A stretch of 64,000 nt of DNA, from contig NZ_SJPQ01000001.1 in the NCBI RefSeq assembly GCF_007859945.1, positions 930,001 to 994,000 on the forward strand, given 5' to 3'. Made by a program: the position numbers and the translations under genes. The number at the start of each line of letters is the position of its first letter. Positions within the stretch are counted from its first letter, which is position 1. Origin of the DNA: Pseudobythopirellula maris (lineage in GTDB: Bacteria; Planctomycetota; Planctomycetia; Pirellulales; Lacipirellulaceae). The notes under the pieces were generated by a model. It made no database searches. It was not told the DNA's origin and worked only from the letters and a program-made list of their open reading frames with translations. Shown in pieces: positions 50,351 to 51,322 of the stretch.

Positions 50351-50383
50351 AAGAAAAAGCCCGTCTGCGGATTGCAGACGGGC
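50351..50383 (-). terminator. Intrinsic terminator of the tRNA-Asn/GIY-YIG locus
   Basis: Read leftward: gcccgtctgc, loop of five, gcagacgggc, then TTTTTCTT. It lies 14 bases past the last tRNA-Asn fragment, so the full tRNA, both nuclease genes and the fragments can be one transcript. Confidence 0.9.
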
Positions 50384-50397
50384 CGTTTAGTTTTAAG

Positions 50398-50465
50398 CTC
50401 CCCCGGCAGGACTCGAACCTGCGACAAGGCGGTTAATCCGCCCGTGGCGGACCTGCTCTACCGAC
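50398..50465 (-). pseudogene. tRNA-Asn 3' fragment, copy B
   Basis: Identical to the 3' part of the tRNA-Asn at 51034-51106 from the D-loop to the discriminator base, but the 5' acceptor and D-stem are missing. In addition, the anticodon 5' stem/loop bases CGGCTG are replaced by the hairpin TCCGCCACGGGCGGA. The left part encodes the C-terminus and stop of nuclease gene B. It cannot be a functional tRNA. Confidence 0.85.
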
Positions 50466-50714
50466 GTGCTCGTCAAGCCAAGCTCTTCCCACCCCGCTCT
50501 TGAACCAGCGTTCACGAGCCATCGCTTCTGATCGCGAAGCAAACTCTTCGCTGTGGGCTAATCGCCAAATCCCCGGGAATTTAGCGGTGTACCGGCTCGG
50601 GCCAGAAGGCTCCGCGCCGTTGTGCTGCAACAGACGGTGATCGAGGTCGGATGTTTGGCCCACGTAGCGTCGGCCAGCCTCGTCGTTGATCAGCACGTAG
50701 ACAAAGAAAAGCAA
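50433..50714 (-). CDS. Small GIY-YIG nuclease-like protein, copy B
   Basis: 93 residues from a TTG start. FVYVLINDEAGRRYVGQTSD gives the GIY-YIG core in its YVL...YVG form. The following DLDHRLLQHN and SRSEAMARERWFKSGVGRAWL match small stand-alone GIY-YIG (UvrC N-terminal-like/YhbQ-like) nucleases. It differs from copy A by two residues (His/Leu instead of Arg/Met). The last residues VGRAGPPRAD and the stop are encoded by the tRNA-Asn fragment. The start lies two bases after the preceding tRNA fragment. DNA cleavage is the family role; the target is unknown, and the tRNA-Asn gene is the obvious candidate. Confidence 0.8.
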   Translation of the reverse strand: MLFFVYVLINDEAGRRYVGQTSDLDHRLLQHNGAEPSGPSRYTAKFPGIWRLAHSEEFASRSEAMARERWFKSGVGRAWLDEHVGRAGPPRAD

Positions 50715-50715
50715 G

Positions 50716-50783
50716 CTCCCCCGGCAGGACTCGAACCTGCGACAAGGCGGTTAATCCGCCCGTGGCGGACCTGCTCTACCAAC
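50716..50783 (-). pseudogene. tRNA-Asn 3' fragment, copy A
   Basis: The same structure as the fragment at 50398-50465: D-loop onward, hairpin TCCGCCACGGGCGGA in place of CGGCTG, then an intact 3' half. It sits between the two nuclease genes, forms the 3' end of copy A and immediately precedes the start of copy B. It is not a functional tRNA. Confidence 0.85.
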
Positions 50784-51032
50784 GTGCTCGTCGAGCCAAG
50801 CTCTGCCCACCCCGCTCTTGAACCAGCGTTCACGAGCCATCGCTTCTGATCGCGAAGCAAACTCTTCGCTGTGGGCTAATCGCCAAATCCCCGGGAATTT
50901 AGCGGTATATCGGCTCGGGCCAGAGGGCTCCGCGCCGTTGTGCTGCATCAGACGGCGATCGAGGTCGGATGTTTGGCCCACGTAGCGTCGGCCAGCCTCG
51001 TCGTTGATCAGCACGTAGACAAAGAAAAGCAA
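50751..51032 (-). CDS. Small GIY-YIG nuclease-like protein, copy A
   Basis: 93 residues, TTG start located two bases after the discriminator base of the intact tRNA-Asn. The GIY-YIG core FVYVLINDEAGRRYVGQTSD, catalytic-type Arg in DLDRRLMQHN and a C-terminal ARERWFKSG helix are present. The C-terminal ten residues and the TAA stop come from the tRNA-Asn fragment and its inserted hairpin. The gene plus fragment form a 318-base unit repeated in tandem as copy B. RNase Z cleavage of the tRNA would leave an almost leaderless mRNA. The activity is inferred from the family. Confidence 0.82.
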   Translation of the reverse strand: MLFFVYVLINDEAGRRYVGQTSDLDRRLMQHNGAEPSGPSRYTAKFPGIWRLAHSEEFASRSEAMARERWFKSGVGRAWLDEHVGRAGPPRAD

Positions 51033-51033
51033 G

Positions 51034-51106
51034 CTCCCCCGGCAGGACTCGAACCTGCGACAAGGCGGTTAACAGCCGCCTGCTCTACCAACTGAGCTAC
51101 AGGGGA
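51034..51106 (-). tRNA. tRNA-Asn (GTT), intact
   Basis: A complete cloverleaf read leftward: TCCCCTG acceptor, TAGCTCAGTTGGTAGAGC D-arm, GGCGGCTGTTAACCGCC anticodon arm with GTT, GCAGGTTCGAGTCCTGC T-arm, CGGGGGA acceptor and discriminator G, as expected for Asn. CCA is not encoded. It is the only functional-looking Asn tRNA of the locus and is flanked by a degenerate copy upstream and two 3' fragments downstream. Confidence 0.95.
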
Positions 51107-51117
51107 ATATGGGGTTC

Positions 51118-51187
51118 CTGTCGAACTGCGGCTAGAGCGGTTAATCCGCCTACGGCGGACCTGCTCTACCAACTGAGCTACAGGAAA
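51118..51187 (-). pseudogene. Degenerate tRNA-Asn copy with hairpin insertion
   Basis: Read leftward, TTTCCTGTAGCTCAGTTGGT and AGAGCAGG match tRNA-Asn. Then TCCGCCGTAGGCGGA replaces the CGGCTG of the anticodon arm, followed by TTAACCGC. The T-arm is shortened (GCAGTTCGACAGGAA). The acceptor ends still pair, but the T-stem is lost, so it should not be functional. It shares the hairpin position with the two fragments downstream. Confidence 0.75.
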
Positions 51188-51322
51188 TAGTCTCATCAAG
51201 CCCTCCAAGTATGCCGCAGCGAGCGGAGGTTGTCTAGGCCGAGATGCTGGCTAACGGGCCTCTCTTGGGAGGGCCGAGGCCCTCTATCCGCTGCAATTGG
51301 ACCACCGGCGGGGGTCGACGGT

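Follow-up and report, generated by a model that had tools for sequence, protein, structure and literature searches.

How does a small nuclease gene come to lie directly against a tRNA gene and to end inside a broken copy of the same tRNA, twice in a row? This question is raised by a tRNA-Asn locus of Pseudobythopirellula maris (G000). The locus lies in a stretch of 64,000 nucleotides, the whole of which is called the window here. Its features are listed below from upstream to downstream:

51208 to 51237, minus strand: promoter-like pair CTAGAC-18 nt-CATACT, upstream of the entire array; the same pair is present at the empty sites of G005 and G018
about 51136 to 51186, minus strand: dead 5' part of tRNA-Asn (tRNA positions 4-28, 100% identical), broken at the anticodon stem, then a palindrome
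51145 to 51159, minus strand: palindrome TCCGCC-GTA-GGCGGA, replacing the anticodon arm in this upstream dead copy
51033 to 51106, minus strand: intact tRNA-Asn(GTT) (ARAGORN; Rfam RF00005, 68.2 bits, locus L154 being the same stretch)
50751 to 51032, minus strand: GIY-YIG nuclease ORF 1, 93 aa, with a TTG start that abuts the tRNA and a stop within a tRNA piece (PF01541, E 4.5e-12)
50715 to 50783, minus strand: dead 3' part of tRNA-Asn, from about position 15, with a palindrome (50755-50769) for the anticodon arm
50433 to 50714, minus strand: GIY-YIG nuclease ORF 2, 93 aa, 2 residues unlike ORF 1 (PF01541, E 4.7e-11)
50397 to 50465, minus strand: second dead 3' part of tRNA-Asn, palindrome at 50437-50451
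50354 to 50388, minus strand: terminator-like hairpin, then a T run; the empty sites also have such a hairpin 3' of the tRNA (by eye)

From promoter to terminator, the whole array forms a single tRNA-Asn transcription unit on the minus strand. A first-pass annotation had described a tRNA-Asn, two GIY-YIG ORFs, 3' pieces of the tRNA and a terminator, and these parts were confirmed by ARAGORN, by the PF01541 matches and by a direct repeat unit of 318 bp whose copies are 97% identical. It had overlooked the third dead copy, consisting of the 5' half and a palindrome (about 51186-51136), and it had taken the 3' pieces for plain tRNA fragments. This they are not, since the anticodon arm is replaced by a palindrome at 50755-50769 and 50437-50451; all three dead copies in the window carry a GC palindrome in that place. 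ORF 1 runs into the tRNA-Asn 3' piece 50783-50715, which contains its final ten codons and its stop. In the genome of P. maris, a 74-base query found a single full-length tRNA-Asn with more than 80% identity among the matches listed, and the two window ORFs were the only GIY-YIG matches at E 0.01. The array stands above chance, as judged from the repeat E-values (L113) and from its recurrence in other genomes. Displaced tRNA pieces and a tandem unit adjoin the complete tRNA-Asn in the window, and tandem units also occur in G010 and G707.

ORF 1 and ORF 2 differ by 6 synonymous and 2 non-synonymous nucleotide changes, a pattern that is best explained by local duplication with some constraint on the copies. 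To judge from the sequences, the tandem pair of units is probably such a duplication and not the product of two invasions. A local duplication of 318 bp would also fit a passive history, in which a resident GIY-YIG gene was caught between tandem tRNA duplicates and copied by unequal recombination, with no causal part for the nuclease. Direct repeats favor unequal exchange, and tandem upstream units of 78 bp and 223 bp were found in G010 and G707. However, this history is unlikely in view of the results described below, namely the empty sites, the recurrence with many isotypes and in mirror order too, the same-strand association with tRNA genes (26 to 0 within 320 nt), and the clustering of Asn and Pro nucleases by target across host families in a host-incongruent tree.

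Empty sites were sought at 29 tRNA-Asn or tRNA-like loci of other genomes, with 1.5 kb on each side. In G005 and G018, which belong to the same family as P. maris, RpoZ, CoaBC, a promoter, tRNA-Asn and a terminator-like hairpin are present and there is no GIY-YIG ORF. The promoter pair CTAGAC-18-CATA(A/C)T is common to the window and to these two sites, and in the window it precedes the dead 5' part. The insert is therefore contained in the transcription unit of the tRNA. The downstream neighbor in the window, an FNR-like gene, was absent within 1.5 kb at the G005 and G018 sites, so the site match is one-sided and holds upstream only. On that side, occupied (G000) and empty (G005, G018) versions of the same site exist with the target kept, and the contrast between genomes with and without the unit that the first-pass annotation had envisaged is found in this shared upstream neighborhood. 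The intact tRNA-Asn in the window and the one in G005, which lacks the element, agree at every base (74/74; search of 35 genomes, own included). Decayed copies were also observed: G016 contains a frameshifted ORF and a dead copy with a different palindrome, and G052 and G407 contain element remnants.

The element recurs at tRNA genes in other genomes. The window protein had a match in 11 of 59 genomes (own included in both counts), and the strongest after its own were G010, at tRNA-Asn, and G031 and G020, at tRNA-Pro. Their anatomy is as in the window, with a degraded downstream piece in G020. When 397 genomes of the class (own included) were searched with a five-row profile, 90 gave E ≤1e-6. 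Six of them were below 1e-15 (G000, G010, G174, G167, G382, and G407) and the next were at 1e-12 and weaker; five of the six are at tRNA-Asn, and G407 is decayed. G382 has several copies, with the element in pieces and contigs that end within the ORF, and at one contig end the ORF lacks a full upstream tRNA in an assembly that is unsure there. An eight-row profile gave E ≤1e-8 for 80 of 392 genomes of the phylum (own included), and the five best of the others have their match at tRNA-Asn (G686, G707, and G456) or at tRNA-Pro (G756, and G513 in mirror order). The same anatomy was thus found at tRNA-Asn in G010, G174, G167, G382, G686, G707, and G456, in decayed form in G016, and at tRNA-Pro in G031, G020, and G756. 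At least five host families have this design at tRNA-Asn, and it was also found at tRNA-Pro, Ser, Val, Asp, Arg, Leu, and Ala. In G707 (L115, C1, minus strand 2900-1400), repeated 223-bp units lie upstream of the intact tRNA-Asn; each consists of a promoter region, a dead 5' tRNA and a palindrome, and the end of another ORF copy precedes them.

Two orders were observed at these loci, either intact tRNA, ORF and dead 3' part, or the mirror of this, with dead 5' part, ORF and intact tRNA. The mirror order was found at tRNA-Pro, Val, Ser, Ala, Asn, Arg, and Asp. The first-pass description of the element as a nuclease plus a tRNA 3' part fits one of these two arrangements, and it leaves out the hairpin in the dead copy; its statement that the intact tRNA is kept holds in every linked case examined. 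The ORF stop frequently lies within the adjoining tRNA.

A tRNA lies within 320 nt of 26 of the 70 best-ranked phylum matches (window included), in each case on the same strand and never on the opposite one. The 320-nt limit was set after the tRNA distances were known; at 5 of the 70 places the flank on one side is shorter than 320 nt, and L214 has an opposite-strand tRNA at 326 nt, just beyond the limit. This agrees with the first-pass expectation of recurrence near tRNAs in planctomycete genomes. The 70 places are the 71 best-ranked minus the second copy in the window and extend to E 8.1e-12, and those with E 8.3e-12 to 1e-8 fall outside them; L010 gave no HMM match in this proximity scan. 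A scripted search detected a partial tRNA copy near the ORF in 19 of the 26 loci with a nearby tRNA; L123 and L202 have such a copy as a short repeat, and in L193, L201, L203, L217, and L218 none was seen across the ORF. None of the 24 weak class matches L027-L050, a part of the class matches, has a tRNA within 320 nt. Additionally, a scan of genome contigs with the window protein gave two weak matches with no tRNA link seen (L013 and L014), and IMG/VR gave 11 weak matches; of L143-L145, which were scanned for tRNAs, L143 has a tRNA-Lys. Two distant matches to the window protein were found in plasmids and none in phage records at E 1e-4 (tblastn).

Targets other than tRNA genes are also occupied. 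In L194 (G584:C301:3469-4884), a GIY-YIG ORF lies in the loop of a 17-bp inverted repeat within an RNase P RNA gene of class A, which is otherwise complete (RF00010 model 1-367 of 367, 244.4 bits). The loop that holds the ORF is presumably P12. In L187 (G513:C97:2914-4353), the ORF lies at the 3' end of an AIRC-domain gene, and the gene end is duplicated downstream. The two copies of this end differ by 7 synonymous and 0 non-synonymous nucleotides in 15 codons, and their last few residues differ, a pattern that would be expected of a replacement end from a diverged donor. Other flanks were seen in two further loci. L219 (G478:C14:55614-57011) has its GIY-YIG ORF between two copies of a 27-bp palindrome, CCCCACACCAATTCCATTGGTGTGGGG, with no nearby tRNA, and in L200 (G702:C223:51592-53037) 95-bp direct repeats (88% identical) with palindromic ends lie around the ORF.

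The range of targets and orders bears on whether the unit could be a satellite inserted by an integrase supplied in trans, with the 3' end of the tRNA serving as att site. An intact tRNA followed by an insert and a 3' tRNA piece is the usual att geometry. In addition, 43-bp tRNA-Asn 3' pieces were found in G011 (G011:C49:65982-66024) and G048 (G048:C86:39052-39094), where the intact gene lies 4.6 kb and 15 kb upstream of them; this is as expected of what ordinary integrated islands leave and would suit such an origin. However, the unit contains no integrase gene and its space is filled by the GIY-YIG ORF, the mirror order with dead 5' pieces is unlike 3'-end att sites, hairpins stand at the break of the dead copies, and the occupied sites include the end of a protein gene and a loop of RNase P RNA. 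An integrase-type insertion is improbable on these grounds.

In the tRNA-linked ORFs, the Tyr of the YIG motif (28/28), Arg (27/28), His (28/28), and Glu (26/28) are conserved. We take these four to be the catalytic residues of the GIY-YIG domain. In the window ORFs, Pfam found no DNA-binding domain besides GIY-YIG, and the search of NCBIfam with the window protein returned TIGR01453 alone, far below the cut-off. Among solved structures, the protein matched the UPF0213 chains 1ywl and 1zg2 (96 and 107 residues; E 1.1e-8 and 1.7e-7) and SLX1 (E 1.7e-4). The single-domain UPF0213 proteins and SLX1 have the GIY-YIG domain in common with the window protein, and we know of no tRNA-linked mobility in either family.

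The nuclease tree was built from the first 76 residues, with most of the C-terminus cut off, and 5 of its 33 inner branches are starred. Eight Asn-locus nucleases from host families f1, f22, f62, f94, and f99 form one clade (100/96), and the Asn loci L185 and L220 fall outside it. When the isotype labels were shuffled 500 times, clustering as strong as that observed never arose for Asn and arose twice for Pro, a result that is somewhat overstated because the ORFs were sampled by a profile rich in Asn rows. The Ser and Val nucleases were not clustered by target (86/500 and 500/500 shuffles as strong). A clade of the two f1 Asn proteins, those of G000 and G010, was rejected with p-AU 0.0043 in an 11-row set, in a post hoc test that was chosen after the larger tree and in which one row is long-branched. 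The distribution of the element is sporadic, its nuclease tree is host-incongruent, and the target is conserved for Asn and Pro. Together with the recurrence, the empty sites and the decayed copies, this largely supports the first-pass proposal of a minimal mobile element at a tRNA gene, although the pair in the window is itself better explained by duplication.

The hairpins are the part of the anatomy that sets the dead copies apart. The palindrome TCCGCC-nnn-GGCGGA occurs three times in the window, always at this locus (0.07 expected from shuffles), and it stands where the identity to the intact tRNA-Asn breaks. The partial tRNA copies at tRNA-linked GIY-YIG loci have 47 junctions, of which 37 show a hairpin, defined as a perfect stem of at least 5 bp, at the break. 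When these stretches were shuffled by dinucleotides, the expectation was 8.1, which is conservative because the shuffled stretches include the hairpin letters, and the 47 junctions are non-independent, with several per array, some dead copies counted at both ends and one spurious row. The latter is a tRNA-Cys called by ARAGORN in L114, which was taken as spurious as it overlaps the ORF end and a dead tRNA-Asn piece; it was left out of the tRNA-proximity count and is still one of the 47 junction rows, without a hairpin. Most tRNA-Asn cases have TCCGCC..GGCGGA, and G016 has TCCCGGCACGCCGGGA instead; dead copies of tRNA-Pro carry GTCGCCGCGGCGAC and GCCGCCGCGGCGGC, those of tRNA-Ala CTCCGGC..GCCGGAG, and those of tRNA-Asp TCCCGACAC..GTGTCGGGA. 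The palindrome sequence varies while the slot stays, which points to a conserved hairpin and not to a conserved sequence. In some dead copies a hairpin is placed in the D-loop (L120 and L185) or additionally in the T-arm (L024), and in G456 it is located in the anticodon loop.

The hairpins might also be the moving part, if the GIY-YIG protein were to mobilize palindromes and the arms of dead tRNAs were their landing sites. RAYT enzymes and REP repeats offer an analogy for palindromes moved by a protein. This possibility draws on the hairpins in 37 of 47 junctions, on the ORFs flanked by palindromes (L219) or by an inverted repeat (L194), and on dispersed palindromes of the same kind in G000 (17; control 2) and G010 (43; control 3). 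Nevertheless, G174, G382, and G167 carry the element but few such palindromes (1, 2, and 4; controls 1, 0, and 5). Nor did excess hairpin density differ when pieces of up to 20 kb from 19 GIY-positive genomes were compared with pieces from 20 GIY-negative ones (p 0.55), in a small, GC-unmatched sample whose negatives are genomes absent from the phylum match list and in which L226, entirely masked, was left out (19 positives instead of 20). A mobilizer of hairpins has only a small chance of being the right account, and a system like RAYT/REP was not supported, as palindrome abundance did not follow enzyme presence (p 0.55, small sample). The small palindromes dispersed in G010 (L076-L095) fall into several related kinds, and their outer stems vary; exact TCCGCCnnnGGCGGA sites number 43, compared with 3 for a reversed control.

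A further explanation is that the system works at the RNA level, either with a protein that acts on the tRNA as RNA or with dead pieces that serve as decoys or processing signals. The ORF start within a few bases of the tRNA end is compatible with this, as is the position of the dead copies in the window, where a single promoter precedes them and a single terminator follows. The upstream dead 5' piece has a more stable fold than shuffled versions of itself (z -2.38, 0/200 equally stable), but the two dead 3' copies are not clearly more stable than theirs (z -0.95 and -0.55; intact tRNA -2.58). Moreover, the structural relatives are UPF0213 proteins and SLX1, a structure-specific endonuclease, and in G174 and G686 a terminator-like hairpin separates the tRNA from the ORF (by eye). 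An RNA-level function is very unlikely. The same hairpins, with another that lies between the dead copy and the ORF in G167 (by eye), limit the first-pass claim of expression from the tRNA promoter, which fits the window, where the shared promoter pair is upstream of everything, and is not general. A group I intron with a GIY-YIG ORF was rejected, since the live tRNA is uninterrupted and no Rfam intron was found in L154 and L022 at E 0.1.

On balance, we find it slightly more probable than not that the window unit is a chromosomal, free-standing GIY-YIG homing element of about 0.3 kb that occupies a tRNA gene. The anatomy, the recurrence, the empty and filled sites, the decay, the Asn/Pro clustering, the host incongruence, and the conserved residues all support this reading. 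The predicted nuclease would break an element-free tRNA gene of a particular isotype, and recombinational repair from an element-bearing copy would then install an intact tRNA and the ORF. The same repair would leave the displaced old tRNA piece, with a hairpin instead of the anticodon arm, so that homing would result in a functional tRNA kept and an ORF gained. Recombination between the tRNA repeats could subsequently build and shrink tandem arrays such as that in the window.

The main difficulty for this reading is that the intact tRNA is identical in the occupied G000 and the empty G005, so that a target wholly within the tRNA would leave the host sensitive. Immunity of the occupied locus must therefore depend on context. 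Our preferred guess is that, in the copy still joined to the native flank, the hairpin abolishes the site at which the nuclease would cut. The copy at the native flank would then have no anticodon arm, and the copy that has the arm would have no native flank on the ORF side, rendering the occupied locus immune. Alternatively, the predicted nuclease may not cut the mature tRNA sequence. The hairpin could also merely lower recombination between the copies, or mark a break-repair event.

A homing element of this kind has partial precedents. WHO elements of Torulaspora and Lachancea consist of a nuclease gene adjoining an essential gene; in homing, one end of the target is replaced, the full-length gene keeps working, and the old end is displaced downstream as a fragment, with formation of tandem clusters (Coughlan et al., 2020; PMC7282813). 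In the same account, WHO proteins resemble HO and are fusions of the intein-zinc finger type, their target is a protein gene, and allele-specific cleavage was demonstrated (PMC7282813). The planctomycete elements resemble WHO elements, as so described, in having displaced target pieces and tandem clusters beside a complete target. Unlike WHO elements in that account, the window has a 93-aa protein, which Pfam assigns to GIY-YIG with no sign of an intein-zinc finger (HO-like) endonuclease, a tRNA target and a unit of about 320 bp, and the planctomycete elements have a hairpin in the dead copy and mirror arrangements. A difference between the live and the displaced end, a trait of WHO elements as described there, is seen in L187, whereas the 40-base 3' parts of the live and dead tRNA-Asn in the window are identical.

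The nearest tRNA-linked nuclease is SegB of T-even phages, which Brok-Volchanskaya reportedly treated in 2008. A later account presents it as a free-standing GIY-YIG homing nuclease, often beside tRNA genes, that cuts tRNA-containing DNA and gives rise to tandem repeats of tRNA and nuclease gene with a 718-bp unit, a C-terminally truncated SegB, and microhomology between the tRNA 5' end and the segB 3' end (PMC13096335). The window is similar in having a GIY-YIG gene beside a tRNA and tandem tRNA-nuclease repeats, and this known product of SegB favors the homing element (PMC13096335). SegB is phage-borne, unlike the window element, and dead partial tRNAs with hairpins are absent from the consulted portion of its description (PMC13096335). 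In the titles and abstract openings returned by searches of the open-access literature (PMC, preprints aside), we found no description of this arrangement in bacterial chromosomes. We conclude that the element is real and recurrent, looks mobile and has a new form; its logic comes closest to that of WHO elements, and parts of it to SegB.

A wider reading, which we put forward tentatively and with the balance slightly against it, is that planctomycete-type bacteria harbor widespread, undescribed minimal homing elements for structural-RNA genes. In these, GIY-YIG genes of 80-100 codons would invade tRNA genes, supply a working copy and disarm the displaced copy by a hairpin; the Asn and Pro lineages at least would move between host families with the target kept, and related ORFs would occupy an RNase P RNA loop and a protein-gene end. 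If this is true, the elements would be selfish, autonomous and very small, and they would show in nature how essential tRNA genes can be both attacked and rescued; they would also account for many orphan small GIY-YIG genes and pseudo-tRNAs. It would also raise the questions of how the intact tRNA of the host is spared although it is identical, and why a hairpin so often stands in for the anticodon arm of the dead copy, and it would provide target-specific minimal nucleases for study. Engineered homing drives may carry a rescue copy of an essential gene, and by analogy the elements described here would be their natural counterpart.
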